DNA from: Picocystis sp. L7
Taxonomy: Eukaryota > Chlorophyta > Picocystophyceae > Picocystales > Picocystaceae
Direction: 5' to 3'
Assembly (NCBI GenBank): GCA_020975725.1
Contig: QXJR01000019.1
Coordinates: 372,001-436,000, forward strand
DNA: 64,000 bases
The notes under the pieces are model-generated. The model made no database searches and was not told the DNA's origin. It saw only the letters and a list, made by a program, of their open reading frames with translations. Positions within the stretch are counted from its first letter, which is position 1, and every line of letters starts with the position of its first letter. The translations under genes and the position numbers were made by a program. Of the stretch, positions 9,558 through 32,504 are shown one piece after another.

Positions 9558-10320
9558 TCCACGGCTTCACGTGTCTTCCCTTCGCACCCACCTCTCTCCA
9601 TGAAGGTATCGCTTTTCCCTTCCCATGCCCAAGCTCTCACTCCTTCCACGTCCATCCAACGTTTCGGGATCCGCTTCGAAGGATCCTTCCTTTCGAAGCC
9701 TTCCATTCTCCTATGGGAAAGGGCAAGGGGAGACCGAGACCCCCACCCAAACGGTCGAGGGAGTTTCTTCTCTCCCCGGGGTCGTCCAACCGCCGTACCG
9801 TGCCGGGTCGGGAGCACGGCTCTCGTCACCCACCTCCCTTGTTCGATACCTTCCCCCGAAGATCTCGATTTGCACGCAGAGATCTCGATGTCCGGAGATC
9901 CCCCGAGGCGGGACGGAAAAGATTCTCCCCCCTGCCTCCACCGAGATCCAGAAATATCGAGATCTTTGCTCCTACGATCGAGATCTTTGCGTCACGAATC
10001 GATTACGTGGAGCCTCCCCCGTGCGTCCCACCGTTCGTAAAAAGCGTCAAAAAAAAGCGAAGAGCGCCACGCACGTGCGCTGCTTCGCGCGCTCTTCGCG
10101 GCGGTTGGAGCGCCCTCGCGCGCCCTTCGAGGAGCGTGGAAGGCGCAGGAAGGCGCAGGAAAGGCCCGGTTGCGAAGCAAAAGGAACACGCGCGAAGGAA
10201 GGCCAGCCCTACGTCGTGGCCCAGCACGGGACGGAAAATATCTGCTGGAACGACGTCGACGTCGCCTGAAGCAAAGGAAAAGAGACGAGCGCCGTGAAAA
10301 AAACCTTGGGTCTGGTGGAA
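9558..10320. promoter_or_regulatory. Beta-amylase upstream region with four ATCGAGATCT-type elements
   Basis: 763 bp of GC-rich intergenic DNA. AGATCTCGAT occurs at 9860-9869 and 9880-9889 (20 bp apart), and its reverse complement ATCGAGATCT, both followed by TTTGC, at 9956-9965 and 9977-9986 (21 bp apart). Downstream, 10030-10170 is rich in GCG/CGC and short GGCGCAGGAA repeats. All lie within 470 bp of the beta-amylase ATG. Long overlapping frames in the region look like GC-driven artefacts. Confidence 0.6.
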
Positions 10321-12090
10321 ATGGCGAAGCGACAAGGAGGGACCAGACGCACGGGCGGGATGGGAAGCACACGTACAACCCGAAGAAAAGAAAGGACCGG
10401 CACCAGGTCGCACACGGCGATGCTCTTCTCGGCGTCCAAGTGGACTTCCAGGCTGCTCTCCGGAACGTTCAAGACTAAAGAAGAAGACAGGGTGGAAGAT
10501 AAGTCAGCACGGGAAGAGGAGGTGGTAGAACGGAAGCAGAGCCACGTGTCGGCTGGGTCAACCGCTCAGCAGAACACCAGGGTGGTGAGGCAAACTGGAG
10601 TGCCCGTGTACGTCATGCTTCCGTTGGACACAGTCTCGCCCGACGGTACCATCACTGCCAAGCATGCCAAGGCACTGGGAGTGGGATTGAAAGCCTTGCG
10701 TGCAGCAGGCGTGGAAGGTGTAATGGTGGACATCTGGTGGGGGGTCGTGGAAAGGGATGGGCCCAAGAAATATGACTGGTCCGCGTACAAGCGCATCCTG
10801 CAGATGGTAAAGGATGCTGGACTCACCATGCAAGCAGTCATGTCGTTTCATGCGTGTGGATGCAACGTGGGCGACCAGCGAGGTGTCCTGCAACCGGACA
10901 AGCAGCACATTCCTCTTCCATCCTGGGTACTGGAGGCTATGAATGATGATCCAGATTTGATGTTTACTGACAGATGGGGTTACCGAAATCCTGAGTGCAT
11001 TTCTCTTTTTGCCCACGATTCCCCTACAGTTGCAGGACGTACTCCCATAGAATGCTACCGCGACTTTATGGCATCCTTCAAGATGGCGTTGGGAGGGGAG
11101 TTGGGTTGGACAGTGACGGACATCTCGATAGGATGTGGTCCTTGCGGCGAGCTAAGGTATCCATCGTACCCGGAGGGGAGCGGTCGTTGGCGGTTCCCAG
11201 GGATAGGTGAGTTCATGTGTTACGATAAGAGGGCACTTATAGGCCTTGCGAGTGCTGCAAGCGAGGTGGGCAGGGGTGAGTGGGGCTCTGGAGGACCTCA
11301 CGATGCAGGATCGTACAATGATTGGCCTGATAATACCGGTTTCTTTGCCACGACGCAAGGCAATTGGGAGTCTGAGTACGGTGATTTTTTCCTCAAGTGG
11401 TATTCTGGGGAACTGATTTCTCATGGTGAAAGGATGGTGGAAAATGCATTCAACGTTTTCGCAGGAACTGGCGTGCACCTGAGCATTAAGCTTGCTGGTG
11501 TGCACTGGTGGTACAACTGTAGGAGCCACGCAGCAGAACTTGCTGCAGGCTACTACAACACGTACGGGAGGGATGGCTACGATGCCATCGCTGAAATGTG
11601 TGCAAAGTGGGGTGTTGGTTTGAACTTTACTTGCATGGAGATGCAAGATCACGAGCACCCATTTGAGGCACAGTGTGGCCCAGAAGGTCTTCTCCGTCAA
11701 GTGCGTGCAGCAGCAGCACGTCATTCTGTACCCTTAGCTGGTGAGAATGCACTGACAAGATTTGATAGCGAGGCGTACAACCGGATTCTTCAGAATGCGC
11801 ATGGAGGTTTGGACAACTACGGAATTCCCCTTCCTCCGCTCGCTTCTTTCACATTCTTGCGCCTACTCCCAGAGCTGTTTGAGGGCTGGAACTTAACAGA
11901 GTTCATGAAGTTTGTGAATCGTATGGCAGATGGTGACCAAGTAACAGACAAGATGAGTGCTGCCATGGACGTCCCCAATGTGCGGATGACGATAGATGAA
12001 TCTTGGCTTGAGGGCGATACCGAAGAGCCGAAGGAAAGTCTGAACGCCTCTGGGCAACGCTTTGTCCTGTTCAAGTTCTCTCGGCGTTGA
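10321..12090 (+). CDS. BAM: Beta-amylase (GH14), probably plastid-targeted
   Basis: 589 residues from the first ATG. It hydrolyses alpha-1,4-glucan from the non-reducing end to maltose. The glycosyl hydrolase 14 signature blocks are present: VYVMLPLDTV, SFHACGCNVGD, then GPCGELRYPSYPE with the acid Glu at about 277, and GENALTRFD with the base Glu at about 475 (Glu186 and Glu380 in soybean). The flexible loop region appears as GTGVHLSIKLAGVHWWY. The roughly 90-residue N-terminal extension is basic and Ser/Thr-rich, fitting a transit peptide; the internal ATG at 10420 would give a shorter form. No intron is needed. Starch breakdown in the plastid is the expected role. Confidence 0.95.
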   Translation: MAKRQGGTRRTGGMGSTRTTRRKERTGTRSHTAMLFSASKWTSRLLSGTFKTKEEDRVEDKSAREEEVVERKQSHVSAGSTAQQNTRVVRQTGVPVYVMLPLDTVSPDGTITAKHAKALGVGLKALRAAGVEGVMVDIWWGVVERDGPKKYDWSAYKRILQMVKDAGLTMQAVMSFHACGCNVGDQRGVLQPDKQHIPLPSWVLEAMNDDPDLMFTDRWGYRNPECISLFAHDSPTVAGRTPIECYRDFMASFKMALGGELGWTVTDISIGCGPCGELRYPSYPEGSGRWRFPGIGEFMCYDKRALIGLASAASEVGRGEWGSGGPHDAGSYNDWPDNTGFFATTQGNWESEYGDFFLKWYSGELISHGERMVENAFNVFAGTGVHLSIKLAGVHWWYNCRSHAAELAAGYYNTYGRDGYDAIAEMCAKWGVGLNFTCMEMQDHEHPFEAQCGPEGLLRQVRAAAARHSVPLAGENALTRFDSEAYNRILQNAHGGLDNYGIPLPPLASFTFLRLLPELFEGWNLTEFMKFVNRMADGDQVTDKMSAAMDVPNVRMTIDESWLEGDTEEPKESLNASGQRFVLFKFSRR

Positions 12091-13679
12091 TTTCCTTCCT
12101 ATTGTACATCATGTAATGATGCATATCCTTTTTCTCTCCATGCTTGGTAACTTTTTTCTCACCTCTCCCACTCCTTAAGTGTCCAACTAAGTTGTATCTA
12201 GATCATTGACTTGCAAGGGATCCTTTTCACTTGAGCACCACGGGGTAGCAATCGTAAGGGACACCTTGCCTTTGGTCTTAGTAGATCTCATTCTATTCAC
12301 GTGGGGATGCATTTCACTGTCGAATCCTTAGCTCGGGCACTGTGAATAGTGTGAGTGTATGTATACGAATGCAAGTGGTTCGATTGAAGTCGAAATTGAA
12401 TTCAAAATTCGTTGTATGTTGTTAGGTCGGTCTCCACGCTTTCATTTGTGCCACCTGCTTACTAGTGTTTCTCAAAATTATGGCAATTGGACAACAAGCG
12501 GAATGGAACTCTACGGATTTCTTTTTACGATTCCAATGGAAGACGTCTCCTTCATCATTACGTGTCTTGTCTGCCTTGGTGCTTGGGACGATTTCATTTG
12601 TAAATGGAGTACGTTATGATCGTTCAATGCTTGTAGGGAGACGTCATGAGCTTGTAAGCTTAGCCACGGAAACATTCTTGAGTAGGGCTTCCTACGTGAA
12701 CGGCTTTTATATGAAATACGCAATACTCCAAGCGGACAAACGCAACGCTCGTTCTTATTGCGAGCAAGAAAAGTACTTTACACATAGTGCACCGCAAGTT
12801 AACTTCATCCGTGAGAAACCACATTGTAACGTCTTGGTACAAGGGATCGCGTATGAACAAAAGAGTGTCATGCAACGCGTGATTGAGCACAGTTGATGCT
12901 TCCATCATAAGTTGTCACTGCAAAGGGTTTGTGTTTACGAACCTTCACTCGTTCATCCGAGATTGTTCAAATTGCTTTAATAGTTCATTCATTTTGCAAG
13001 TTCCAACGCTTTGATTACATAAAATGCCATGTGTGAGGATGGGTCCAATCCGATTTTTTTCAACAAGTAAGCAATGCGCCATGTTCGAGAAACGCGGACC
13101 ACAAACGGTTAGAAACAGGGAAGCGCGCTGGCACCGTGAGATCGATGTACGTCGAGATTCACAACATACGGTTGTAGCTGGGGGGCACTCTATGCGAGTT
13201 CTCCTAATGGCAACGAGTAGGCGTTGAGAGGCACTATGTTGGAATGAACCTTCCACAATTCCAAGGTTCCGCAGTAGAGGCCGTTGTTGTTGGGCATCCA
13301 ACAAGTCCAATGGAATACTTGTTGTGGAAGCCTACGTATTCCAAAGAACCTCTCACAGTGCCACATCTTGAAACCGTTTGTGATACTTCGGCATGGATAA
13401 CTACAGTTGATTAGTTCCGAAGTCCTCCGCATGGGGGAATGCCTTGCACGCGTTTATCTTGATCACATCTCCGGCCTTGCGGTGCCGGTCGATTCCTCCG
13501 GCACGCCCACTCCCCCACTTGTGCTGTGGACGACTTTTTCATGTCACGGGTGGAATGTACTTACCATGCACCCCTCTGTCATGATGCATTTCTCGCTATC
13601 TGATTGGGTTTGTTGTTCCATTGTGTTTCACCCTCACCATTCTGGTTGTGGTGGACACAATCCCGACGCACCGTCGACC
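12091..13679. other. Low-GC island 1
   Basis: About 1.6 kb, visibly richer in A+T than flanking genes up to about 13460. Short frames on both strands (for example 12465-12896, 143 codons) match nothing I know. No terminal repeats were seen. The start should hold the beta-amylase 3' UTR. A decayed mobile element or simple relaxed spacer are both possible. Confidence 0.5.
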
Positions 13680-13919
13680 ATGTCTGCGCTCCGTCCCCAC
13701 CGCTGCAATGACCGCGTGGAGGACGCCGTGCAGGCGCTGTTCGAGGGCGATTTCCGACACGTGTTCCTACCACGTGCGCGGATCGCATGGGAGTGCTTTC
13801 GGAGCGCACCAGGACAGGAGCCCGACGTGCCCTATGTGTTCGTGCAACCATCTCCATCCCAGGACGAGAGGGAACATGCATCCAAACCAGTCGAGGGAAG
13901 GAAACGAGAAGTTCCGTAG
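13680..13919 (+). CDS. Possible small hypothetical protein (79 aa)
   Basis: An ATG at 13680 opens a frame of 79 codons in sequence that has returned to the GC content of genes. The text (DRVEDAVQALFEGDFRHVFL, then PDVPYVFVQPSPSQDE) looks protein-like, but I recognise no family. Its stop is 35 bp from the stop of the converging importin gene, which would be tight but not out of line with other gaps here. It may instead be an exon or chance ORF. Confidence 0.3.
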   Translation: MSALRPHRCNDRVEDAVQALFEGDFRHVFLPRARIAWECFRSAPGQEPDVPYVFVQPSPSQDEREHASKPVEGRKREVP

Positions 13920-13954
13920 GCAATGAGGAGCGAAGGACGTGTGGAGGAGCAATC

Positions 13955-16900
13955 TCAAGGATGAACAACCTGTGGCACCGGCGTTGGAGGAGTGCCGCCT
14001 TGGCCTTTCTTCTTGCCGCCAGAGATGGTCTTCAACTGAGCCTTGAACTTCTTCGGATCCGACCAACTGTCTGCACCAACCAGTCTGTCTGCCATAGACT
14101 CAATCACGTGGAGCTTGGACATGCCACGAGCACGCATGAATTCCACTGCAGAACCGCGCAGCCAAGGGCCAAAATGTTCAAAACCAACCGTGTGCCACAT
14201 CTTGTGGAGGGAGGCAGAGATTGGCTGCACCATCCACGGCGGCATCTTACCACCAGCCGCTTCCAAGCAGGATGTGCAGATGGCAGTACCTCCGCCTGAT
14301 GAAAGATACGAAATCGCAGCAGGGTTCTGGTTGGCCGCCAACTGACAAAGAGCAACACACCAGGACAATGCTGCCTCCCCAACGGATCTGTCTTGGGCTT
14401 CCATGGATGGTCTGGCAAATGCGGCTAGGATTTGAAGCCGCTGTTCATCTGCACCGTCACCAATAAAAGTGGTGCTCCAGACGATGCCCAGCTGCAAGAT
14501 CGCGGCTACCACTCGTGCCACAGCGTCGGCACATCCACCAGCGTTCTCCAAGGTCTTCAATGCACCTACGCACAGCGATTCAGAGCACTCGTGAATGGAA
14601 GATTTTATGTGTGCTGTTTTGGCCAAAAGGATGATGCGTTGAAGCAGTTCCACTAGGCCGTGCTCCTCCGTGATATGGTAAAAGTAAGGTATGTGCTTCA
14701 TTGTGTGTTGCATCCAGTGTACAGTGCTGGGGGCTAGGTTGTGCGTTGAATCAGGTAGTTCTTCTTCCCCTGGAGTGCAAGGTAAAAATGATCGCAACAG
14801 ATCAACAACGGCCATTGTTGCATCCATGCGATTCAAGAAGGAACCCGAGCTAAGCGATGCCTCCAGGAGTGACCTTGACACTTCAACCACAGGCCAAATC
14901 ATGCCCATCAGCAAGGACATGTTTTGGGCCCCTGTCTCAGTTGGGCAGTCATAGTATCTCTCCACCACGGCCTGAGAGACTATCCCCAACACGTTCAACT
15001 TCAGGGGTAGATACTCCAATGCACCAGCTATTGTGGATGGATTGAATCCCTGCTTTGAAAGGGCCTCCACCCACTGCGAAGAGTCCTGGCAGATGTGGCG
15101 GAAGACCACCTCTGCAGTAGAGGCATCTAGGCCTGTTGCTAGACGCGCCAAGGATGCCAAGAGCATTTCTTCTGTAGAGACATCACCATACTCCCCCGCA
15201 CGAGTTGGTGGTGGCCCCATGCCACTGTAGATCTTCAGGAGCTCTTCGATGAGTGCAGGATCGGACAGCATTGCTGCGCAGTGTGGATTGCGTGCTAGTC
15301 TTTGAAACGCAGTCGCTGCATTCCTGGACAAGGTGGGCTCTTTCGAATGCAGCGTGCGACCAACACTCAAAACAACATCCCTGAGTACAGAAGGGTGCTT
15401 GCTCAGAAAGCCTGGGATACCACCAAGGAGGGTCAGGGCCGTTCCAGAGAGTTTCGGGTGAATGTTTCCATCTAATGCCTGCAGGGCCGCATTTGCTAAA
15501 TTCAAGGATATACATGACACTGCGTCATCCTGCATCCGATTCAGGACCACGTTTGCCGCGTAGAGTAGTGCTTCTTTCCTCTCCCAAGGCAAGTGCTCCA
15601 AATGAAGCGCCTCTTCAATGTTTTTCAACACATGCGCAGGACCTAAGAAGGCAGCAAGCATGCGAAGCTCCACCCCCACCTCTCTCCGAACCATGCGTTC
15701 AGATTCAGGTAGATCTCTAGCATCTGCGCTCTGAACGCTCGCTGCTTGACCTTTCAATTGGGCCCTTCGCAACAATGCATCAAGCAGTGCACCAAACACG
15801 CTAGAGGCCCCTGGAGCAAGCCTCATGCTTTCGTTCTCCATGTCTGCTCGTAAGTCAGACCAGTAACCTAACGCAATCATGGCCACTTCTCCATCCTCGT
15901 CATCGATGCCTCTGAGCATGGTTTGAAGGAGCGCCTCCGCATTCCTTCTGCGATTGGGATCTGCACGCCAAGATTCCCCTTCCATCCCTTCGGCAAGCAA
16001 TAGCACGGCTTGCTTTCTGGTGGAGTTCGCAATGGTTGCTAGCACATCGAATGCTGCCCTGGCTCGGAGACCTCCCAGTTGGCCACGATGAACCCTCTCC
16101 AGGCACTGGAGTGCTCTGGGGAGCATGGACAGGAAGGCCTCCGGATCCTTGCTGCTGCAGGCTGCACAGATCATCTCTGCAGCTGCAGCAGTGATATCAT
16201 CGTCATCATCGTCCACTTCTTGCCGTTTCGAAGGTTTGTTCCTGTTCACTCCTTGCCAGCCCCCAAGTGGCTCTTCCTGCATCCTTGCGTCGATGTGGTC
16301 GAACGCTCTTCCCAGGAGCACATGTGCAACCTGGCAGCTAGCATCTGCGATGGGCGCAGCGTCTTCGAAGGTTTCTTTTGGATGAGAATCGATCCTCTCT
16401 TCGAGCAGCTGCCACATCCATCGCTCGCCACGAAGTGCGTCTCGCAATTCCTGACGTCGTTCTGGCGGCATGTGGACGTCCTTCCGCGTCGCATCGATCC
16501 CCATACGCGCCACCGCCGCATCTACGGCCTCGCACCTCACCTCTTGACGCCATTGCAGCAGTTCGCGCACCGTTTCATGTGCGCTTTGCTGCGGTTCGAG
16601 GCGTCGGATGCGTGTGACGACGGCGCACTGGGCGGCGATGGCTCGCGTTTGCGGATCGCAGGTGTCTGCGAGGGCCGCCACGGCGGCTTCTTCGAACGTA
16701 TTTGGATCCAACACGTCCTTGGACGCCTTTCTGAGCGCCACGGCGGCGAGGAAACGCGCCTGGTGCGGCTGCAGCTGTGTTCGTCCATGCCTTCGGAGGG
16801 CCTGCAGCGAGGCCAAGCACCCGCCAGGTGCTTTCTGGAACCGCTGGAGGCACTCGTCCGCCTTCCTCCTGGTGTCTTCTTCCGTCTTGGGATCGTGCAA

Positions 16901-17011
16901 GGTCTCCAAGCACGCCAAGGCGTGGCTGACGTCCGTCGCCATTGCGCCATCCACCTCCATCGCGAACCGTCGTCGACGTGAGGGGAAGCCAATGCCATCC
17001 ACTGGCCCCAT
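13955..17011 (-). CDS. Importin-beta family karyopherin (transportin-3/importin-13-like)
   Basis: 1018 residues, one exon, ATG at 17011. The N-terminus (ALACLETLHDPKTEEDTRRKAD then LQRFQKAP) is the importin-beta N-terminal helix pair that binds Ran, in the style of TNPO3/IPO13 (short hit, then xWLxxFQ). The rest is helical HEAT-type sequence with an acidic loop (VDDDDDDITAAAAEM, near residue 268). The tail SGGKKKGQGGTPPTPVPQ is basic and disordered. TNPO3 and IPO13 carry SR proteins and other cargo through nuclear pores. Family level is fairly sure; the exact member is inferred from length and N-terminus only. Confidence 0.75.
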   Translation of the reverse strand: MGPVDGIGFPSRRRRFAMEVDGAMATDVSHALACLETLHDPKTEEDTRRKADECLQRFQKAPGGCLASLQALRRHGRTQLQPHQARFLAAVALRKASKDVLDPNTFEEAAVAALADTCDPQTRAIAAQCAVVTRIRRLEPQQSAHETVRELLQWRQEVRCEAVDAAVARMGIDATRKDVHMPPERRQELRDALRGERWMWQLLEERIDSHPKETFEDAAPIADASCQVAHVLLGRAFDHIDARMQEEPLGGWQGVNRNKPSKRQEVDDDDDDITAAAAEMICAACSSKDPEAFLSMLPRALQCLERVHRGQLGGLRARAAFDVLATIANSTRKQAVLLLAEGMEGESWRADPNRRRNAEALLQTMLRGIDDEDGEVAMIALGYWSDLRADMENESMRLAPGASSVFGALLDALLRRAQLKGQAASVQSADARDLPESERMVRREVGVELRMLAAFLGPAHVLKNIEEALHLEHLPWERKEALLYAANVVLNRMQDDAVSCISLNLANAALQALDGNIHPKLSGTALTLLGGIPGFLSKHPSVLRDVVLSVGRTLHSKEPTLSRNAATAFQRLARNPHCAAMLSDPALIEELLKIYSGMGPPPTRAGEYGDVSTEEMLLASLARLATGLDASTAEVVFRHICQDSSQWVEALSKQGFNPSTIAGALEYLPLKLNVLGIVSQAVVERYYDCPTETGAQNMSLLMGMIWPVVEVSRSLLEASLSSGSFLNRMDATMAVVDLLRSFLPCTPGEEELPDSTHNLAPSTVHWMQHTMKHIPYFYHITEEHGLVELLQRIILLAKTAHIKSSIHECSESLCVGALKTLENAGGCADAVARVVAAILQLGIVWSTTFIGDGADEQRLQILAAFARPSMEAQDRSVGEAALSWCVALCQLAANQNPAAISYLSSGGGTAICTSCLEAAGGKMPPWMVQPISASLHKMWHTVGFEHFGPWLRGSAVEFMRARGMSKLHVIESMADRLVGADSWSDPKKFKAQLKTISGGKKKGQGGTPPTPVPQVVHP

Positions 17012-17698
17012 GGGTTAACTCTCCACTTAACACGAGCAGCACACCGGCCCCATCCGAGGACGACCGGGGGGGTGGGAGAACCGGCCTCCTCCGCGGGACG
17101 TGTCGATATCACGTGCGAACGAGGAAGGAGGGTCGAACGATCCCGTTGCGAAAAGACGATGCGCGTCGAGGAGATATCGATATCTCCGAGAAAGGTACCG
17201 ATCCGTTTCCCGGGTGGTTTCGGATCACTCGAGTCGTGGGGATGCCCATCAGCCAAGGCGACCCTGAACGTGTGTCCTTCAGGCAGAGCAAATGTCCATG
17301 AACCACCGTGGCATGACAAAGTACGAAGGAATGCGAATGCCAACGGATCGGGCGACTTCTCTGGGATGCACCGACCGGTCCAAGGAATTTCGTTAATGAT
17401 TTCAACACTGGACATGGAGTGATGCGCATGTCGACCCTCCGCGCCCAACAGGGTAGGAACAGGTGCGGACGAATCGCAGAGCAGATGTGCAAAGGGTGGA
17501 GGGAAAAGCAGGAAACCACTTCGGCTGCAGAGTTCAACGTATTTCCAGCCGCGCAATGGCTCAGTTCATCGTCCTTTAACGTCATGTGTTTATGCAAGCT
17601 CCTTACTTACAACTGGATACAAAAATCAACATCAGCTCTCTCCAGAATGTACAACGAGCTACCCAACCACCGCAAAGAACGGCACGGGCAGCTTGACC
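17012..17698. promoter_or_regulatory. Importin upstream region with an 18-bp perfect palindrome
   Basis: 687 bp upstream of the minus-strand karyopherin. GGAGATATCGATATCTCC at 17170-17187 is a perfect palindrome, about 160 bp before the ATG. Further elements include CGATATC flanked by ACGTG and CACGT arms at 17099-17116. The distal end is the 3' flank of the HAD gene. No credible ORF. Confidence 0.55.
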
Positions 17699-18712
17699 TT
17701 ACACCGTTTTGTTTCTGGCTTCTAACATTTTGGCTAGCCTATCGTAGGCCAGGCCACCCCCGGGTCCAAAACCATCAAACTTCCAGTCCACTCCTGGTTG
17801 GGCCCCATTCATGTTGTTGGAACACGGCACAACTGCAGTGAGTAAGCCAGAGCCAGCTGCAGCCTTGAGAGGCCGGAAATGGGCACCAACGAAGACACAG
17901 CGAGAGAGTTCTGCGCCCAGCTGGAGCTGCGCGACAGCATTGATCCAGTCACTGCTGATACCCTCGCCTTCAAAGAGCAGGTTCGGATCCACACTCCAAC
18001 CCCTCCCTTCACTCGCTTGTCTGGCAATGTTCCGTTTGAGCTTCCTTTGCTTCTCTGCCGCTGCAGCAACGAGGGAGGAGGCCACGTCCTCCAGGACTTC
18101 TTCCGAATCCTTCGTCTGCTCGTCTTCTTCTACTCCCTCCCCATTCGAGAAGCCTTCGAACACACTGATTTTGGATGCTCTGTCAGAACCCAGCTTCCGC
18201 ATCACCATGTCCACCACGTGCTCGTCCGGGGCTGAAGCAGTGCCTGCTACTAGTCCCACTTTCGCTCCAGCAGACAATGCATCGTCCAGAAACTCAAGCA
18301 CCCCGTCTCTGAACTCCACTTGGTCATTTTCCACCATCTCCTTCATGGCTGCTCGCTTCATCCGGTGAAGCTCCTGTGCATATCCCACCCGATCCTTTTC
18401 CGTCACCATCAAGGGCCATCCCACGGTGTTGAAGTAGGCGATGATCATGCCTTCTCCACTTCCTTTTCCCCCTCGCATCACGTCATGGTACACCTGTGGC
18501 GACCAGTGGGCGCAGTCCAGGCCCATGGACTGGAAGGCTTGGTTGAACGCGACGCGGTGGGCGTCGCGATGCACGTCCACCATCACCCCGTCGCACTCCA
18601 GGAGCAATCCCATCGCATGAGACGCCCGTGCACGCACTGGAGAGGATCTCGCATGCCTTCTGGACCTGCGAAAAAGAGCTGCACGAGGCGCAGGCATCGA
18701 TTGCGAAGCCAT
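17699..18712 (-). CDS. CbbY-like HAD-superfamily protein with altered nucleophile motif, plastid-targeted
   Basis: 337 residues from the ATG at 18712; the frame continues upstream but into low-GC sequence. A basic, Ser/Arg-rich N-terminus (about 1-33) looks like a transit peptide. The HAD domain starts LLLECDGVMVDVHRDAHRVAFN. In active CbbY-type phosphatases this is DxDGV, where the first Asp is the nucleophile; here it is Glu. The following text (MGLDCAHWSPQVYHDVM, GMIIAYFNTVGWP, EFLDDALSAG, LSRCVFVGAHFRP) resembles a plant CbbY-like subfamily (such as At5g45170), which as I recall also has Glu there. A regulatory or non-canonical activity is therefore likely. Confidence 0.8.
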   Translation of the reverse strand: MASQSMPAPRAALFRRSRRHARSSPVRARASHAMGLLLECDGVMVDVHRDAHRVAFNQAFQSMGLDCAHWSPQVYHDVMRGGKGSGEGMIIAYFNTVGWPLMVTEKDRVGYAQELHRMKRAAMKEMVENDQVEFRDGVLEFLDDALSAGAKVGLVAGTASAPDEHVVDMVMRKLGSDRASKISVFEGFSNGEGVEEDEQTKDSEEVLEDVASSLVAAAAEKQRKLKRNIARQASEGRGWSVDPNLLFEGEGISSDWINAVAQLQLGAELSRCVFVGAHFRPLKAAAGSGLLTAVVPCSNNMNGAQPGVDWKFDGFGPGGGLAYDRLAKMLEARNKTV

Positions 18713-21752: not shown

Positions 21753-22112
21753 CCTATTGTTTGCATCGTTCACTTGATCTTGCCTGTAGACCGCTCCACC
21801 CTCACCAACTCCATCTTCAAGCTCTCCACCCCGCCGGACCGCTCCGAACCCACCCCCGAAACGTTTATCCGCGAATTCGCCATGACCCGAAGAGCATCTC
21901 CTCTCCTGCTTTTGTCCTCTACGTCATCTGCCCCGTTTCCCGGATCCCCGTTCCTCGTCCGCCACGGTCCCCATGTCCCGCCTCGAAGCCCGGTTTTCCC
22001 TTTCCATCCCCTCCTTCGGGACAGGACCCGCAGAGGAGGGGGCGCCGCCTGGTGGTGTGGACGTGGGCCCTTCCCACACGGATTTCAGTGCCAAGCACGA
22101 TCGAATTGGACG
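21753..22112. promoter_or_regulatory. Spacer between hotdog-fold gene and S16 gene
   Basis: 360 bp between two genes on the same strand. It should contain the hotdog-fold 3' UTR and the S16 promoter. No separate gene or clear motif. Confidence 0.4.
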
Positions 22113-23187: not shown

Positions 23188-24657
23188 ATGGAACAGCACA
23201 GCGACAGGTCCTTGGACGCGAAGAAAGCGTCGAAACCTGCCTTGGGAACCCGTGTGGCCATCTTCTGGCCAGCAGACCTGGTGCGTGGGATGCCGACGCG
23301 TGGAAAAGCGAGGCCGAGCTCGCCGCCAAGGGACGAGACAAGGACGGACGGGAACGGTTCTGCCGCACGATGGGACGAGAACCATCGTAGAAGAATCTTG
23401 AACGCCGAATGCAGCACACTCGTGCGATCCATCGACGTGGAAGGAACGGCGAAAGCCAAAAGTGGCCGATGCGGACGTGGTCGCCCACCAACGACGAGAT
23501 TCGAACACCAGCTTGCTGACGGTGCGAGGGGTTTCGACGCTCGAACGACGATACGAACCGCATCGATCGTGTCGACGAACATCGCCACGATTCTTCAGGC
23601 ATGGTATTTCGGAACGGTGGTGAAAGAAAACACGGACCAAGGCACTCACTACATCATGTATGACGACGGAGACGAGGAGGAGCTCGATCTGAGCAAGGAA
23701 ACCTTCAAAATGGTGGACAAGAATGGAAACTACATCGGTGGAAATAATGCTCATTTGGCAAACAGCGGAGAAGACGAAGAGAACGGTGGCGACATCAATA
23801 TTGCAGCAATCGCCAATAAATCGCTCCCGGATGCGACAGGGAGCGAAGAAGCTGATCACCTGAAGGATGCACTGATAGATGATCCGCTGCCTAACAAGGC
23901 AATCGGCAACAAAAAGGCTAGGCTTCTTCGAGCCCGCGATGACAGCACTGGGGATGCAACTGGCGACAAGGAGGTGGATGCAGCAGGTGAAGGGCCTCAA
24001 CCGAAGCGTACAAAGATGCAGACGAGGCGCATGGTCTCGCGTAGACTTCCCACAGTGGACTATTACGAAGGGGGCACACCTGGAGAGATCGAAACTGGCA
24101 GGCTAGAAACCGAAGCATTGCCTCCAATCACCCCAGTCGGCACCGAGACAGGAAACACTACAGAGAACGGACTTGTCGCCTACGGCACACAGGCACCTTC
24201 AGCTGGTACGGGAAGAGGCAGGGGTCGTGGTAGAGGGAGGGGGAGGGGAAGAGGTCGGGGTCGAGGACGAGGTCGTTCAGGCTCAAGAAAACTTTCTGCT
24301 ACAGTAGGAGGAGCAGACATATATGCAATCGCTTCTGGCAATGCCACCGACGAGAACCATGGCGTGGACCTCGCAGTCCTTGCTGCCGGAGCAGAACATG
24401 CACAAGCAATCAGTGGAGATAGGGAACGAAGTGGCATAGCTTGCTTGGCCCAGAAGTCGAACCAGCATGGCAAAGATGTATTGTCTTGGTTGCAGAGCCA
24501 TGGGATGGAGAAATTCGCATCCCATTTCATTGCTCACGAGGTAGACATCGAATCCCTCAAGCTGCTGGAATATGGCGACCTCAAGGAGATGGGGATTCAT
24601 CAGGTTGGTCCTCGCAGGAAACTCTTCAAACTCATTGATGGTGTTCGTCGTGGATAG
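23188..24657 (+). CDS. Tudor-like / GR-repeat / SAM-domain protein (2 exons)
   Basis: Exons 23188..23280 and 23599..24657 give 383 residues; the 318-bp intron is GTGCGT...TTCAG. The junction builds a Tudor-like fold: GTRVAIFWPADL|AWYFGTVVKEN, then THYIMYDDGDEEELDL. Such small barrels read methyl-lysine or methyl-arginine, or bind DNA. The middle (about 70-215) is acidic, then basic, with PKRTK and TRRMVSRR stretches. Residues about 230-258 are an uninterrupted Gly-Arg repeat, an RNA-binding and methylation type. A C-terminal SAM domain (DVLSWLQSHGMEKFASHF, LLEYGDLKEMGI) ends at the stop. I know no named protein with this order. A nuclear chromatin or RNA scaffold role is inference. Confidence 0.8.
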   Translation: MEQHSDRSLDAKKASKPALGTRVAIFWPADLVRGMPTRGKARPSSPPRDETRTDGNGSAARWDENHRRRILNAECSTLVRSIDVEGTAKAKSGRCGRGRPPTTRFEHQLADGARGFDARTTIRTASIVSTNIATILQAWYFGTVVKENTDQGTHYIMYDDGDEEELDLSKETFKMVDKNGNYIGGNNAHLANSGEDEENGGDINIAAIANKSLPDATGSEEADHLKDALIDDPLPNKAIGNKKARLLRARDDSTGDATGDKEVDAAGEGPQPKRTKMQTRRMVSRRLPTVDYYEGGTPGEIETGRLETEALPPITPVGTETGNTTENGLVAYGTQAPSAGTGRGRGRGRGRGRGRGRGRGRGRSGSRKLSATVGGADIYAIASGNATDENHGVDLAVLAAGAEHAQAISGDRERSGIACLAQKSNQHGKDVLSWLQSHGMEKFASHFIAHEVDIESLKLLEYGDLKEMGIHQVGPRRKLFKLIDGVRRG

Positions 24658-25569
24658 GTAAGTTCTCCAGTTGGTGTGGCGTATAGTGATTTGCGCCCAC
24701 AGGAGGGCGGCGCTTCACAATTACCTCCGTCCCGAAGCTCTTTACTCTGCATGCTTGTAAAAGACAAGTTCTGCTGAACTACCGGTCGAGGCAGGACTAT
24801 CTTTGTAGCGGCAAACTTTTGCCCAGAACTGCTCGTCAATGATTGTGTTATTCACAAGGTCATGTGACGCGTGTCCCCAGACGGTTGGTCGGACCAGGTG
24901 TAGATGATCTCCCATCATTCCGGTGCTGTGATTGCCGATGGGCCTGACCCACGTCATGGACTGGAATTTTACTGCTAATTTTTTCCATGCATGTCTGTGG
25001 CTACAGGCCAACCGGGTGCCATCTTTCTTGCGTGTGCGATGAGGCAGCATTTCTTTTTTTTGTGTAGTCCATCCTCTCCTCCCGGGACAGGCCTGGATCA
25101 CCGTTGACCCCGTGTTCCTTCCTGGTCAAAAGGTTCCTCTTTGCCACGTGCGTCGCTCGTTGCAGGACCATGGCAATCATGCCATGATCATTTGTATCTC
25201 AGGTGTCCCTGTTTGTCCAATGGCATCGTTCCACTTTGCAATTATGGATGTGTATCCCTGGATGTTCCATGGTGCCCTCTTCCATCCCTCCGTTCCAGAC
25301 ACGAAACCAGAGAAGCGCAACACGAACACGACGTCGGCAACCGTCTCTGCGAGGCGCTCGATCGCCGTCGCCACCAAGACCGCGCTGGAAGGTGCACGAG
25401 GGGACTCGCCTGCACGTCGCGCCTTTCGGAGGAGCAGATTGGGTCGCACATTCGCCCGTCGGATCTGCTGGCGCCTGTTCAACGCTCCACCATTCGCAGG
25501 TTTTGGTGTCCTTCGCTGCGCCGAGCGTCGGCGCGCGCTGTGTTTGGTTCCCCGTGCCTTCGTGCTTCC
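24658..25569. promoter_or_regulatory. Spacer before flavin-reductase-like gene
   Basis: About 0.9 kb between two genes on the same strand. The first half is lower in GC and likely 3' UTR. The second half is GC-rich with a short hairpin, GCGCCGA-GCG-TCGGCGC at 25518-25534, about 36 bp before the ATG. An open frame reaches upstream of that ATG but has no recognisable content. Confidence 0.45.
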
Positions 25570-26304
25570 ATGGAACCATCAAACACGCGTCGTGTGAAGA
25601 TCACGCCATCGCCACATCCGAATTGGAGACCGTCCAAACCACAACCTTCACCATATGCGTCCAAGAACATGATTACCTTCGATTGTGCAAAACAAGGACC
25701 AGCAGTGCTCTATCCCATCATGGTCAGTGCAGTGGTGCCCAGACCCACCGCATTGATCTCTACTGTGGACGGAAAAGGTGTGCGCAACCTGGCACCGTAC
25801 TCCTACTTCAATGTGGTGGCGCACGATCCACCGCATGTGGTGGTGGGACTCTGCATGCATGATGATGGAAGCAAGAAGGACAGCCTCAAGAACGTGGAAG
25901 AGACCGGAGAATTCGTGGTCAACATGATGAGCGAATGGTACGCAGAATCTTCCAATTTCACCTGCGGTGGATATGGACCAAACATAGACGAGATGGAAGT
26001 TGCTGGGCTCACGCCCCTGCCTTCCCTGGTGGTCAAACCAGCGCGTGTCGCGGAGTCCGCCGTGCAGATGGAGTGCGTGCTCAAGCACAGTTACGAAGTT
26101 CACAACGATCAAGGGGTGCACACCACCACAGTTGTCATTGGAGAAGCCAAAATCGTGCACGTGAACGAAGGCGTGTGCGAGAAGGTGGAAGGAGAATATC
26201 GCGTCTCTTTGGAAAAACTCCAGCCCGTTTCCACGTTGGGAGGCACGTATTTCGGACGGACCGACTCGATCTTCGAGATGCCCAGGCCAGAAGAAGCAGG
26301 ATAG
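25570..26304 (+). CDS. Flavin reductase-like domain protein (FMN-binding split barrel)
   Basis: 244 residues from the ATG at 25570. The sequence YPIMVSAVVPRPTALISTVD, then NLAPYSYFNVVAHDPPHVVVG and ETGEFVVNMMSE is typical of the DIM6/NTAB-type flavin reductase family, which binds FMN in a split barrel and in many members reduces it with NAD(P)H. The family is spread through bacteria, algae and fungi; substrates are mostly unknown. The 32 residues before the domain are Pro/Arg-rich with no clear targeting pattern. The stop faces that of shikimate kinase, 150 bp away. Family is sure, role is open. Confidence 0.85.
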   Translation: MEPSNTRRVKITPSPHPNWRPSKPQPSPYASKNMITFDCAKQGPAVLYPIMVSAVVPRPTALISTVDGKGVRNLAPYSYFNVVAHDPPHVVVGLCMHDDGSKKDSLKNVEETGEFVVNMMSEWYAESSNFTCGGYGPNIDEMEVAGLTPLPSLVVKPARVAESAVQMECVLKHSYEVHNDQGVHTTTVVIGEAKIVHVNEGVCEKVEGEYRVSLEKLQPVSTLGGTYFGRTDSIFEMPRPEEAG

Positions 26305-26454
26305 CCAACGACGGTCGACTGGAAACACGTATTCGTATTTTGCTGTCCTGCAAACTTGGAGCGAGAGGTGGAGTAGGAGCGCTCGAAAAAGCATCCGCTA
26401 ATATCCCATTTATTCTTTTAGCCCATGGCCACGTCTGATCGCTGGCAGGCGCAG

Positions 26455-27380
26455 CTACCCCCCAAAACCTTTCTTCCCACCCGTATCCTTCCCATCGTCA
26501 AATTTGTTGTAATTCACCATGTTGCTCTTCTTGCCACGTTCTTCCAGCTCCATTTTCTTCTTGTCCATGAGATAGACGATGGCGTCGAGGCACCTTTCCA
26601 CGATCACCTGGGGCGTGGCGCTGGCGTACGAATCGGCAGAGTCCTGTATGGAAACGCAAGCGTCTGCTTCTTGGTAGAGGTGTTTTCTCTTTTCAAAAAT
26701 GTCCTCCAGCTTCTCCTGCGTGGTTGCGAGGAGGTCTTCACCGGCTTCGTTGGCGATCAGCGGGCGCGACCCTGTTCCGTCACCGACCGCACGTTCGGCC
26801 AAGATGGACGTGGCACCGTTCAGCCAGATGACCACACCGTTTCTCATGCTGGCCCAGTTCCTGGTCTTCAGCACGACTCCTCCACCGGTTCCCACCACGC
26901 ATCGCTGGAAGGAGCACAGTTCGGACATGACTTCCACTTCCAGGTCTCTGAAGTACTCTTCTCCCTCTTCGGCGAAGATCTGGGACACGGTTTTACCACC
27001 AGCCGCTTGTTCCACGAGCGAATCGCTTCCATCGTCGCGTACAAGCACGTCCTCGGTCAGTCCTTCCCGCATCGCGTCTGGTTTCGCTCTCTTCCGTTCC
27101 TTTTCAAGGATTTGCAAGCTCACCTGTCGAAGAAGTAGTATCCCATCACTTCAGCGATCCCTTTTCCCACGGTGCTCTTTCCGCTTCCCATCATGCCGAC
27201 GAGGTAGATGCTCGAACCGTGCAGCGCTTCCACGAGTCCGTCGAACTTCTGCTGCAGGCGCGTGGTTTCTTCCGGTTCCAGCACCCGTGGAGGGGTCGCA
27301 CGTGCACGCACGCGGGGTCTTGCGGCGGATGCGAGGCGTCCTGGACGGCATGGACGTGCGCGACGCGCCATCGTCGCCAT
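26455..27380 (-). CDS. SK: Shikimate kinase, plastid (2 exons)
   Basis: Exon 1 is 27380..27124, exon 2 is 27025..26455 (minus strand), 275 residues; the intron of 98 bp is GTGAGC...GGAAG. It phosphorylates shikimate to shikimate-3-phosphate in the plastid route to aromatic amino acids. Exon 1 has a Walker A loop (GMMGSGKST) after an Arg/Ala-rich transit-like leader; splicing gives GYYFFD|SDSLVEQAAGG, the shikimate-binding stretch. Exon 2 carries GTGGGVV and the lid GSRPLI. The extra C-terminus is lysine-rich (KKKMELEERGKKSN). Two ATGs lie 9 bp apart at 27380 and 27371. A perfect 28-bp palindrome lies 41 bp upstream of the first. Confidence 0.92.
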
Positions 27381-27420
27381 CGCGTTTCTGTCCGACACGT
27401 GCGCCGCCGACCTCCCTTTC

Positions 27421-27448
27421 ATCGATACCTTGGATCCAAGGTATCGAT
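27421..27448. repeat. Perfect 28-bp palindrome
   Basis: The left half ATCGATACCTTGGA is followed directly by its exact reverse complement. There is no loop. Chance occurrence of a 28-bp perfect palindrome in 64 kb is very unlikely. It lies 41-68 bp upstream of the shikimate kinase ATG. Confidence 0.95.
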
Positions 27449-27454
27449 ACAAAG

Positions 27455-27481
27455 ATCGAGATCTCTTCCGAAGATCTCGAT
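27455..27481. repeat. Inverted repeat ATCGAGATCT-7 nt-AGATCTCGAT
   Basis: Perfect 10-bp arms at 27455-27464 and 27472-27481. The arm is the same decamer seen four times before beta-amylase and twice before the FUSED-type kinase. Confidence 0.9.
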
Positions 27482-27828
27482 GGAAGGGACCCGCACAGCG
27501 CCTCGCCGTGTCGGTTTCGTCTTTCGGACGAGGCTGTGGACGGCGTGATCGGCGTGTCCAGGGTGGGATCTGCAGGAGACGAGCGTGCAGCAGAGGGAGG
27601 AGACGCACGCGAGGCTTGTGCTGTTGATGGACGACAGTCAAAGGGTGGATTGGGAGGGAGGGAAGCACCCAAAGGACGCCTGGTGGTCGGTCGTCGCCTG
27701 CGTCCTTGCGCGTGGGAATGCAGCGGGTCGTTCGCTCCTTCCTTCACGTCTCCTGGCCCTGGCATCCGTCTCGTATCACGTCCATTGGATGTGGGCGTTG
27801 GACGTCCGTGGCGAAGCGGATGAGCCTT

Positions 27829-28066
27829 GGACCACACACGCACACACACACACACATAAACACACACACACACACACATAAACACACACACATAAACACA
27901 CACACATAAACACACACACACATAAACACACATAAACACACACACATAAACACACACACATAAACACACACACATAAACACACACACACATAAACACACA
28001 TAAACACACACACACACACATAAACACACATAAACACACACACACGCACATAAACACAAACACACA
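27829..28066. repeat. (CA)n microsatellite with regular TAAA breaks
   Basis: About 240 bp of CACACACA units broken at short intervals by TAAA (ACACACATAAACAC). Alternating purine-pyrimidine DNA of this kind can form Z-DNA. It sits in the middle of a divergent promoter. Confidence 0.95.
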
Positions 28067-28539
28067 GTGGTGTGGGACAGGAGAAGATGTGTGGTGGACA
28101 GGCCACGGTCCACTCCACCCTCCGCCTCCCGTACGTCCCCTGCCTCCACGGTCCCCGTCGCTCCAACCCAGAACCGTGGGGAAAGGGGGGTGAGAAGGGA
28201 CCACGGAGGCGTGGCCCGTGGAGGAGACCGTACGCCATCCGGGGGGGGGAGGGGATCGACCCCGCGGGAACCCGTGCGATTTTCCCTTTCGAACCCGAAC
28301 CCTTGATGGGAGGAACCCGAAGGACTTCCCTTACGACCCTCGGGTCTCGTTCCCTCCCATCCCTACGCGCGAGTCCGCGTTTTCTCGATCGAGACCCTCC
28401 CTCGCCCTTGTTTCTCGTCCCGTCCACGAGTCCACCCCATCCGTCCTGGACCGAGGCGTCTCCTCCATCCAAGCGTCGACGACGCAGTTGTGCGCCTTTC
28501 ACGTCGCCGAAGCGCGCTCCACCGTCCTCGAACACGTCC

Positions 28540-29344
28540 ATGGCGATGTCCACGACCCTCCTGAAGCCCACCATGCGCGTCCAGCCGCGCGTGGCCGCAC
28601 CCAGGCGCGCCACCAAGGCCGCACGCGGCGCATCCGGCGTGGCACGTGCAGCGCCGATCGTCGGCAATCCCGCACCTGGATTCTCGGCGCAAGCGGTGTA
28701 CGACCAAGAGTTCATGGACGTCTCCCTCGATCAGTACAAGGTACGTCGTCGTCCGATGTCCAAGACGGACGTGTCGAGGATGCCGAGGACGGCTCGCCTG
28801 GAAAACGTGGCGCACGAGCTGACCCAACCGCGCACCTGGACGAACGACGCAGGGAAAGTACGTGGTGCTCTTCTTCTATCCGCTGGACTTCACCTTCGTG
28901 TGTCCCACCGAAATCACCGCCTTCAGCGACCGCTACGAAGAGTTCGCCAAGCTCAACTGCGAAGTGTTGGCCGTGTCCGTGGACAGCCAGTTCTCCCACT
29001 TGGCCTGGTTGCAGACAGAACGATCCGAGGGTGGATTGGGCGACCTCAACTATCCGCTGGTCTCGGATCTGAAGCGCGAAATCTCCACCGCGTACAGCGT
29101 GCTCACGGAGGAGGGAGTGGCCCTCCGCGGACTCTTCATTATTGATAGGGAAGGAATCGTACAGCATTCGACCATCAACAACTTGGCCTTTGGCAGGAAC
29201 GTAGACGAGGTGCTGCGTACACTGCAGGCGCTGCAGTACGTGCAAGACAATCCGGACGAGGTCTGTCCAGCCGGTTGGAAGCCAGGCCAAAAGACCATGA
29301 AGCCCGATCCTGAAGGCTCCAAGGAATACTTTGCTGCCATCTAA
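28540..29344 (+). CDS. PRX: Chloroplast 2-Cys peroxiredoxin (2 exons)
   Basis: Exons 28540..28740 and 28853..29344, 230 residues; the 112-bp intron is GTACGT...CGCAG and the junction reads [19 protein letters not shown]. It reduces hydrogen peroxide and lipid peroxides in the plastid stroma, recharged by thioredoxins or NTRC. The peroxidatic Cys is residue 84 (FVCPTEI) and the resolving Cys about 205 ([10 protein letters not shown]). The C-terminal GSKEYFAAI holds the YF motif of redox-sensitive eukaryotic forms. The first 60 or so residues are basic, Ala/Pro/Ser-rich and fit a transit peptide. Confidence 0.95.
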
Positions 29345-29621
29345 ATCGACCAAACACTGTCGCAACCGCGATTCCCACGACGGGAAGAGTCGATCTGTGT
29401 AAGTACGATTCTTTGCGCTGATACTTCCCCATGTTTTTTCTTTCCTGATCTGTGCTGTGTGGAAGTAGCTGCGCTTGAGGTGCAAGAGTAGGTGGAGAGT
29501 GGTCCTCGGTGCCCATCTCTTGCATCTCAAGTGAAGCACGATTGCACGGAGGGCAGAAGGCACACGACGTTCACCCAAAATTTTATTGAACCGCATCACG
29601 ACCAGCCAAGAAGGAGTGAGC

Positions 29622-32275
29622 TTATCGCTTGCTCTTTCCTGCATACTTGGACAGAATTCGTGCCGCATGCTTTGCCTTGCTACCCTCCTTTGAATGGGCA
29701 AGCTGAGCTGCCATGGCATCGATCTCGAGGGCTTTGATTTTGTGTCTGCAAACCTCGTAAGCAGCCAGGTTTCCCAAAGAAAACAAGGCCACGGAAGAAG
29801 CTCCGGAATCTTCACCAAACGCTGTGGCACATAGGGCATCCACCGCGCCCGATTTTACGAGTTCCTCACACAAGAGCCCACCATTGCGCGCGAAGTTTCC
29901 GAGTGCTCCAGCAGCATTCGCCCGGGCTTTGATGCTCTCTTTGTCATCATCCTCCCGCTGCAAAAGATCAATCAACAGGGGTATGGCATCTTTCAGGGCC
30001 ACATAAAGCATGTGGTTGTGGAAAGCAGCATTGCCCAATGCAAAGCTGGCAAATTTGCGCGCAGTGCCATCTTCGTCTCTCAGGAGATTGACGAGTAGGG
30101 ACAAGAGAGTGGTTGCTGCTGGCCTGCTCCTTGCATCCACTCCTTCAAGTTCCTGGGACAAAGGAGCTTGCTCCCAGATGTTTTGATTGCTCATTTGGAC
30201 CAAAGGTTCCACCAGCGGTTCGTAGAACGCAGCAGTGTGCCTGCACAAATTTCCCACCAGATGCGCGGCTCGTCCCCTTACGACCGGGCTCTTGTGACTC
30301 AGTAGCTCCCCTAGCACTTGAGGCATGGTCTTTTCCATAAAGCAATTCACAAAGGTGGACTCCCCCCGTACAAGCTGGCTGTAGACCAAAAGGACATCGC
30401 ATGCAACTGGCGGAGAATTGGAACGGTGCAGAAGGGATTGCAGGTGATGTGGATCCCTTGCTGGTGAGTCTGGTAGGCTCATCTGCTCCGCTAGTGCCGG
30501 GGACTCCAGCACAAATCTGACTAGCAAAGAAGAAGACGTCCTGAGTACAGAATTCAAAGCAGCTGGAGGAGCCTCGGTGGAGCTTGGTGTACGTGCCCAC
30601 ACTTTCTTTGCGATGATGGAAGAGAATTCAAAGAGCCTTGTGGCCGCTGAACCATATGCAAGTATTTCTGACACATCCTCTGACCTATTGTCCAGTAAGC
30701 AGACCATTGCGCCCAAGCAGAAGCGAACAGTCCTCACCCTTACACTACTTGCCTCTTCGCTGTGGGATAAGGTGCATACAAGATCGAGGAGTCCAAGCAC
30801 CAAAGGCTCCAAGTGAACCTCTGTACGGTCTTTGAGGGATGTGGCTGCCGTCTCAACTGTTGGAAGCACTGATCCCATGGCGGGGTCGGCCAGTTCTGCT
30901 CTACACCCGTCCACAATGCATCCTAGCCAGGCGCCGAGCCCATCGATGTGCAATGGTTGGATGTTCTCTCTGCCAGGCCTATCCCCACTCCTTGTGCTTG
31001 TCTGAAGGTCAGAGGCACAGGCAGTCAACTGGCTTGTTTCTTGATACTCCGATCCTGAACGCACCCCTCTCTCGCATGCCTTCTCTGACCCCATGGAGGA
31101 ATGGCAGGTCGATAGACCATCTGCTTCTTTGGTGCTTTGAGTCTTCCTGGGAGGGTTACCATTCCTCTCTTTGAGTGTACCCCGATGTTGTCTGCATTCG
31201 CTGGTGGTAACTTTCTGCCCTGCTTCCTGCTCAGTGTGTGGCGGATCTGGGCGGCTGCTTGCAACGCTTTGTTCAACCATGGTTTCGAGAGTAGAAGAGC
31301 GCGATGATGAGCAGCGGAGCGTGGAAGATGTCCTCTGACTATTTGCTGATGTCTGCTGTGAGGAACCCAATGAGGCCGATCGAGGCGTCCTGGCTTGGGC
31401 TTGCTTTTCCTCCTCTGTGTCGGCAATGAAAGGGTGTCGAAGCAGATCTGGCCATGAGAGACGTTCCCCTGGAACCTTGTGCAGCAAGCCCGACAAGAAG
31501 TTCTGGAATTCCGGGGATATCCTCTCAGGAAACTCCACAGGTGACTTGACTATCTGATTGATCAACTTGTAGATGCTGTTGGTGTAGAACGGGGGGACTC
31601 CGAAATACAGCTCGTACAGGATCACGCCTAGACTCCAAAGGTCCACATTGTGGTTGTAAGCTTGTTCCTGGACTAGCTCCGGTGCCATGTACAAGGGGGT
31701 TCCCTTGATTGAGTGTAACATGAGTGTGGACGGCGACATGGCGCTTGCAAAACCGAAATCGCACAGTTTCACGAGTCCTTTACTCCCGATCAATATATTT
31801 TGAGGTTTCATGTCCCTGTGTATGATTCTTTTCCTGTGCAAGTAATCCAGAGCCCTGACCAGTTGCTTGGCTATCTTCCTCACCTGGTCTTCTTTCAGCC
31901 TCCGGTCGTGTTGGAGGACTTCGAAGAGCTCGCCATGTGCAAACTCGGTGACCACGCAGAACTCGGTGGGTGTCTCGAAGGCGTCCAGCATCTCTACGAT
32001 GTTTTCGTGTTTGAGGTTTCTGAGTATCTCTATCTCCTGCCTCAACCCTTCCAGATCCTTCTCGCACTTCCCTTTCTTGGTGATGAACTTCATGGCCGTC
32101 ACCTGTGCACTGTGCTTCTTCCTCGCCTTGTACACCTGTCCGTGCGTCGTTTTTTTCGCCGTGCTTCGCGTCAGCACGTGTCCATCCACCCATTTGCTCT
32201 CTTCTCCGCACCACATCCACGCACCTTTCCGAACGATCCTTCGCCCACGAGGTCGAGCACGCGGTAGCCATCCAT
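29622..32275 (-). CDS. FUSED/TIO-type Ser/Thr kinase with ARM repeats (2 exons)
   Basis: Exon 1 is 32275..32225 (17 codons), exon 2 is 32135..29622; 854 residues. The 89-bp intron GTGCGT...ACAG splits the glycine loop: [18 protein letters not shown]. The kinase is complete: VTAMKF lysine, [26 protein letters not shown] long Ser/Gln-rich linker leads to ARM-like helical repeats at the C-terminus ([25 protein letters not shown]). Plant FUSED (TIO) acts in phragmoplast expansion and the animal/algal form (STK36) in the ciliary central pair. Domain order and kinase text fit this family well; which role applies cannot be told. An ATG further upstream is in the same frame as exon 2 but lacks the glycine loop. 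Confidence 0.9.
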
Positions 32276-32504
32276 CGTGCGCGCAAACGCGAATTGGAAC
32301 CGTCTCGGCTCCCGCCCGTTTCCAACCCCCGAAGAACACAGGGGAACCCTCGACATATCGATATCTTTGGAAGAAAACCATCGAGATCTCCGGCCGGGGG
32401 AGCGTGGGCGAAGCATCGATATCTTTCGAAGAAAGATATCGAGATCTTGGAAGGAAGGGAGGACAGTGGAGGTGTTGAGGATGGTGGGACGTGGAAGGAA
32501 TCAT
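32276..32504. promoter_or_regulatory. FUSED-type kinase promoter with ATATCGATATC elements
   Basis: The 229-bp gap behind the AP mu gene. It contains ATCGATATCTTTGG near 32357, ATCGAGATCT at 32380-32389, a 12-bp inverted repeat TCGATATCTTTC-GAA-GAAAGATATCGA at 32416-32442, and ATCGAGATCT again at 32438-32447. All are 80 to 172 bp upstream of the ATG at 32275. Confidence 0.65.

Follow-up and report, generated by a model that had tools for sequence, protein, structure and literature searches.

A short DNA word, ATCGAGATCT in its commonest form, is strongly over-represented in the genome of Picocystis sp. L7, where it gathers in clusters upstream of genes; neighbouring sites lie whole helical turns apart, and their relative orientation sets the distance between them. 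It is fairly probable that the word is the predicted binding site of one DNA-binding protein, or of a small family of such proteins, which would mark several hundred mostly housekeeping promoters through arrays of sites on the same face of the helix, binding cooperatively and activating transcription. Protein binding, cooperativity and activation are predicted here from the arrangement of the sites.

The window, i.e., the whole stretch of DNA that was analyzed, comprises 64,000 nt of the assembly GCA_020975725.1 (contig QXJR01000019.1, positions 372,001-436,000, forward strand), and the searches covered the genome of 30 contigs and 20,525,659 bases. Its gene content is that of a green alga, with 18 chlorophyll a/b-binding matches, none to a phycobilisome linker, and green-lineage light-harvesting proteins as the best PDB hits among those with a single matching stretch; the score of the top PDB hit, 9vfj, is on a different footing because it combines two stretches. 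In the whole genome, ATCGAGATCT was found in 414 copies on both strands versus 8 for the same word read backward, ATCGATATCT (searched as AGATATCGAT) in 400 copies versus 5, and a third variant, ATCGATACCT, in 273 copies versus 10, the backward-read control being one that does not preserve dinucleotide content. The word thus totals about a thousand copies over its forms, and its strand split is even (200/214 for ATCGAGATCT and 204/196 for ATCGATATCT). The initial annotation had described a shared upstream element resembling a promoter code; counts so far from random expectation, together with the clustering and position of the sites, support such an element, with a putative action at promoters.

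In addition, 10-mers were ranked in a sample of 264 kb (the window plus C1:100001-300000) against the expectation of a trinucleotide model. The top ranks were taken by AGATCTCGAT (15 observed, 0.78 expected) and AGATATCGAT (8 observed, 0.34 expected) after exclusion of runs, low-complexity words (dinucleotide or purine-rich) and a single ACATAAACAC-type repeat. Other over-represented words of the same sample were CACGTGCG (45 versus 15.6) and the ACATAAACAC-type repeat (14 versus 0.15). All eight sites of ATCGAGATCT or its reverse complement reported for the window (9860, 9880, 9956, 9977, 27455, 27472, 32380 and 32438) were found in place. The expectation of 0.12 per 64 kb given with them is correct for equal base frequencies, and the trinucleotide model raises it to about 0.19 per 64 kb.

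According to the matrix refined on 29 cluster regions (consensus RAGRTMTCGAT), the unit is an asymmetric site of 10-11 bp in which a CpG is flanked by AGAT on one side and by AT alone on the other. Of the 14 most frequent one-base neighbours listed for each form, only the other main form and AGGTATCGAT (6 copies) exceed four copies. The earlier view of a palindrome as the unit is not borne out, as the long palindrome consists of two sites with a common CpG; of the two related palindromes proposed, that at 17170-17187 is genuine and that at 32416-32442 is an interrupted inverted repeat. The single copy of GATATCGATATC in the window, at 17173, lies within the former. The arrays of the window and the genes next to them are the following:

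9842..9986: array of five sites 5' of the beta-amylase gene, namely TTCGATACCT at 9842-9851 (degenerate), AGATCTCGAT at 9860-9869 and 9880-9889, and ATCGAGATCT at 9956-9965 and 9977-9986
10273..12090, plus strand: beta-amylase gene (GH14), which follows the first array (Pfam PF01373, E 3.9e-113)
13955..17011, minus strand: long frame without Pfam match at E 0.001
17170..17187: palindrome GGAGATATCGATATCTCC, 5' of the gene at 13955-17011, made of two opposite-strand sites with a common CpG at 17178
26464..27126, minus strand: partial shikimate kinase segment, N-terminal part unplaced (Pfam PF01202, E 1e-28)
27421..27481: array of four sites in alternating orientation 5' of shikimate kinase, namely ATCGATACCT at 27421-27430, AGGTATCGAT at 27439-27448, ATCGAGATCT at 27455-27464 and AGATCTCGAT at 27472-27481
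29622..32228, minus strand: gene of a protein kinase that carries HEAT/Arm repeats (Pfam PF00069, E 3.8e-74, and HEAT/Arm), which we take to be FUSED-like by its architecture
32357..32447: array 5' of the kinase gene, with ATCGATATCT at 32357-32366 and 32415-32424 and ATCGAGATCT at 32380-32389 and 32438-32447

The names given earlier to three of these genes (GH14 beta-amylase, shikimate kinase, HEAT/Arm kinase) agree with Pfam, and "importin", the name given to the frame at 13955..17011, found no support there. The statement that all sites lie within 475 bp of a start codon is about right, with 437, 218, 395 and 185 bp between cluster centre and start of the named gene; a start on the minus strand that was called nearer to the first cluster (217 bp, versus 437 bp for beta-amylase) is probably spurious. 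No Rfam match to RNA genes was found in the 64-kb window or in the loci L062, L030 and L037.

The three forms have 81 listed sites on contig C1, which fall into 44 clusters, a count that includes four transposon-borne sites and two in a reverse-transcriptase frame; 62 of the 81 sites have a neighbouring site no more than 150 bp away, versus a mean of 1.35 under random placement. Extrapolation from C1 alone gives about 630 clusters genome-wide. Pairs of ATCGAKATCT sites with a gap of up to 30 bp were searched in the whole genome in the three relative orientations. This search yielded 95 head-to-tail pairs, 60 face-to-face pairs (the pattern is blind to those below 14 bp) and 46 back-to-back pairs, and the reversed-pattern control gave 0 in each case. 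Ten head-to-tail copies of one transposon-borne 25-bp pair were dropped, which left 85, and face-to-face spacings were taken from the 50 of 60 pairs listed. Distances between CpGs were distributed as follows:

Head-to-tail (n = 85): 12-13 bp (4 pairs), 19-24 bp (54), 31-35 bp (26), 40 bp (1)
Face-to-face (50 listed): 19-23 bp (32), 25 bp (1), 29 bp (1), 32-33 bp (2), 40-44 bp (14)
Back-to-back (n = 46): 10-14 bp (27), 20-23 bp (6), 26 and 29 bp (2), 31-35 bp (11)

The CpGs of 176 of the 181 close pairs listed are therefore 10-13, 19-24, 31-35 or 40-44 bp apart, and these spacings are whole helical turns. The orientation sets the spacing: back-to-back sites are mostly 11-12 bp apart, and face-to-face and head-to-tail sites mostly 20-23 bp. 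At a period of 10.5 bp the phase of the 181 pairs gave R = 0.719 (best period 10.6), and the highest value among 20000 uniform draws was 0.234; after removal of similar spacers, 131 pairs gave R = 0.691 with a null maximum of 0.279. When longer pairs were added, the peak centres were 11.8, 21.3, 32.7, 43.0, 54.9 and 64.6 bp, these pairs being not all independent because some long ones include a third site. Phasing is weaker beyond 40 bp: the 41 head-to-tail pairs with gaps of 31-60 bp gave R = 0.409, a value equalled in 29 of 20000 nulls.

The rule is plainly visible in the shikimate kinase promoter, where the CpGs at 27423, 27445, 27457 and 27478 are separated by 22 bp (face-to-face), 12 bp (back-to-back) and 21 bp (face-to-face). 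The CpGs of the kinase gene array (32359, 32382, 32417 and 32440) are placed head-to-tail at 23, 35 and 23 bp, and those of the beta-amylase array at 9844, 9866 and 9886 (22 and 20 bp apart) and at 9958 and 9979 (21 bp).

The variant ATCGATACCT is absent from all pair patterns, and its 57 sites on contigs C1-C6 were tested separately. They had 27 partners within 6-70 bp with R = 0.652, which was reached in 0 of 20000 nulls; back-to-back distances were 10, 12, 12, 12 and 44 bp, and face-to-face and head-to-tail distances mostly 21-22 bp, with 25, 31, 33, 36 bp and longer ones in addition. The variant obeys the spacing rule and the control word CACGTGCG does not: this word, which has a noncoding excess, formed 19 close pairs spread over 11-37 bp with R = 0.232, and 39% of nulls reached this value. 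Degenerate partners of 124 exact sites showed the same peaks with R = 0.335, a figure that includes an 8-bp count arising as an artefact of the AGATCT palindrome.

The position of the sites relative to genes was assessed in the 264 kb, which had been labelled by a codon model with 60 long frames as its training set. Of the 23 exact main-form sites, 5 lie in the 38 divergent gaps (30.3 kb), 10 in the 31 tandem gaps that measure 250 bp or more (30.2 kb) and 8 in coding-labelled segments (174 kb); none was found in the 38 convergent gaps (24.0 kb), the 17 short tandem gaps or the 3 edge stretches of this sample. Seven of the eight coding-labelled sites precede the first plausible ATG of the Pescadillo gene (5) or of a gene with a Vps51/EXO84/COG1 N-terminal domain (2), and the eighth is within a reverse-transcriptase frame (RVT_2). 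The initial annotation had found no exact decamer in coding DNA, which is true of the window; in the 200 kb of C1, one of the seven copies of ATCGAGATCT is in the RVT_2 frame and five are labelled coding by the model yet lie upstream of the Pescadillo ATG. Divergent and long tandem gaps together hold 15 of the 23 exact sites, and their density in coding and intergenic DNA is not equal.

The degenerate matrix at threshold 10 gave 53 matches in noncoding DNA versus 18.2 in shuffled sequence, and 68 versus 38.1 in coding-labelled DNA. The excess in coding segments is only partly explained by upstream DNA that the coding model reads through; the remainder lacks an explanation, and the coding contrast therefore rests on exact sites only.

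A called start was present within 700 bp of 34 of 39 clusters versus 237 of 600 random noncoding positions (Fisher p 3e-9), where most of the 30 fetched loci had been picked for multiple sites and the automatic start call is rough; within 400 bp the numbers were 26 of 39 and 146 of 600. The clusters with a start were 7 of 9 in the sample and 27 of 30 in fetched loci, the transposon locus L037 being omitted, and the five clusters without one include a five-copy 22-bp tandem array (L030).

Fifty-one frames were scanned with Pfam, and 8 of them remained without a match at the E-value applied. The matches among cluster neighbours were GH14, shikimate kinase, kinase with HEAT/Arm, Pescadillo, EDC4, arginine-decarboxylase-like, MCM OB, Cyt-b5/desaturase, Rieske, 6PGD, Nas2/PDZ, 2OG oxygenase, CbiA-like, actin, YrrC-type OB, methyltransferase, methyladenine glycosylase, EH, APS kinase, cyclophilin, DEAD helicase, adaptin-binding, MORN, Clp protease, LYR, HEAT, Clp_N, RRP5 S1, ODP, E2, MFS, trehalose phosphatase, TPR and RRM. 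By inspection, these look like mixed housekeeping genes with no prominent pathway. The CbiA/CobB-type nucleotide-binding frame, unusual in a eukaryote, adjoins actin (L036, 2-982, minus strand).

An orientation-free word that is tied to the 5' ends of genes, clustered and spaced by turns is what would be expected of copies of a protein touching one another on one face of the DNA. The CpG centres of the sites of an array would be on the same helix face, back-to-back sites about one turn apart and face-to-face or head-to-tail sites about two turns apart; with sites on one face at fixed turns, neighbouring protein molecules could touch and bind cooperatively. The bound array would most likely open the promoter and activate one or both flanking genes. 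More tentatively, a single alga-specific factor may form a regular one-sided promoter lattice with two types of contact, dedicated to several hundred housekeeping promoters, with two mobile elements carrying the word as well. Candidate binding factors in the genome are one zf-BED match and nine SHAQKYF-type domains, none of which is favoured. The sole zf-BED match is placed as follows:

C15:406801-408600 (locus L061): 378-aa open frame with the zf-BED match (BED-finger protein at C15:407275-407430), followed by a second finger-like stretch recognized by eye

A boundary or chromatin-organising element like the BEAF-32 sites, which would separate gene units or position nucleosomes and influence transcription only indirectly, would also lie in clusters near gene starts, and 5 sample sites are in divergent gaps. 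According to PMC2605929, each BEAF subunit takes one CGATA, and clusters are located near transcription start sites (TSSs) of cell-cycle genes; the one zf-BED match points in the same direction. This explanation is nevertheless rather unlikely, given that 10 of the 15 noncoding sites are in tandem gaps and none is in convergent gaps, although general boundaries should occur there too. An RNA-level element of 5' untranslated regions, suggested by some clusters within 60-100 bp of a called start codon that could be transcribed, is highly improbable: strands are equal genome-wide and mixed inside single arrays, and phasing by the DNA helix is hard to make sense of in single-stranded RNA.

A mobile or tandem repeat that spread and left the sites as remnants of one repeated sequence would fit the first and third of the following entries; the others are further repeats or mobile elements that hold the word:

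C1:774001-778000 (L037), more copies on C4, C24 and C26: repeat with a long tyrosine-recombinase-like frame (weak Pfam match, E 0.0015, below its cut-off), presumably Crypton-like
C1:114690-114740: copia-type reverse-transcriptase frame (RVT_2) with one exact site and ATCGATACCT 12 bp away
C1:1106641-1106716, C7:189322-189393 and C17:300977-301072: arrays of tandem copies
C1:1106619-1106716 (L030): five sites in a 22-bp tandem array, no gene within the 2 kb read and no tRNA
C7:601674-633987: ATCGATACCT seven times at exact 5,384-bp steps, and therefore a tandem array of a 5.4-kb unit, with no Rfam match in the 800 bases read

The tyrosine-recombinase-like repeat carries the site pair in 10 places at a spacing of 25 bp, out of phase; the site in the RVT_2 frame has a partial site about 21 bp off, and its partial and variant neighbours are in phase. 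Elsewhere, the spacers vary between pairs, the 131 pairs with dissimilar spacers are still phased, and all three orientations are present, so repeat spread is disfavoured and very unlikely. Viral use of the word was considered separately: in IMG/VR, the pair pattern with gaps of 9-13 bp matched 14 stretches versus 3 for an out-of-phase control (14-18 bp). After merging of equal or nearly equal spacers, 8 remained, each inside an open frame 194 aa or more in length, and these matches may be read as chance and common coding sequence.

The preferred reading remains that of promoter arrays that would be bound by a protein. The word and its two-distance orientation rule may be new, the helical spacing and orientation rule having been missed initially. 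In the open-licence literature, as far as titles and the starts of abstracts go, the description of the element as undescribed stands: no algal promoter word was among the matches listed for exact ATCGAGATCT and GATATCGATATC, and the word and the rule were absent among those listed on algal promoter motifs, helical phasing and prasinophytes. To our knowledge, promoter grammar is little studied in this green-algal lineage. The spacing rule is readable from bare sequence and predicts protein geometry (same face, one or two turns, contacts that depend on orientation) cleanly enough that a few binding or reporter constructs would test it; it also offers a starting point in the search for the binding factor and in the design of promoters for this lineage.

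As for known systems, the nearest analogues are the Drosophila DRE and BEAF-32 sites; the algal word would work like them, and no kinship is claimed. The DRE and its factor DREF have a wider housekeeping role. The DRE (TATCGATA, bound by the BED-finger factor DREF) shares with the algal site the central ATCGAT and a location near gene starts, which are those of cell-cycle genes (PMC2605929). The algal site, however, is asymmetric and stands in strict helical arrays, whereas the DRE is an 8-bp palindrome, and 414 of the 814 main-form sites read ATCGAGATCT, without TATCGATA. In BEAF-32 sites, each word takes one subunit, many clusters are no further than 500 bp from a TSS, and the site is defined as two CGATA clusters round an AT-rich spacer of about 200 bp (PMC2605929). 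Clusters of a short word near gene starts are common to both systems, but the algal sites are spaced by helical turns, ATCGAGATCT has no CGATA, and CGAT is followed by A in 25% of matrix sites. Since the commonest form contains neither TATCGATA nor CGATA, membership of the DRE and BEAF-32 families fails by sequence.

Other regulatory words are also comparable. Plant evening-element or CCA1-type sites read AAAATATCT, and GARP/LUX sites GATWCG. They have the ATCT or AGAT part in common with the algal site, and the algal genome encodes nine SHAQKYF-type domains, but the algal site needs the adjacent TCGAT, has no AAA and places CG one base further from GAT than GATWCG does; neither core is present in the matrix consensus. 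Yeast PAC/RRPE and the plant telo-box are lineage-specific words upstream of ribosome-biogenesis and growth genes. The algal word resembles them in its place upstream of growth genes, with Pescadillo and an RRP5-like gene among its neighbours, while the sequences differ and the algal neighbours form a mixed set in which ribosomal genes do not predominate. As in homotypic arrays, several copies of a single word lie close together upstream of genes, and regulatory DNA with phased homotypic arrays is already known.
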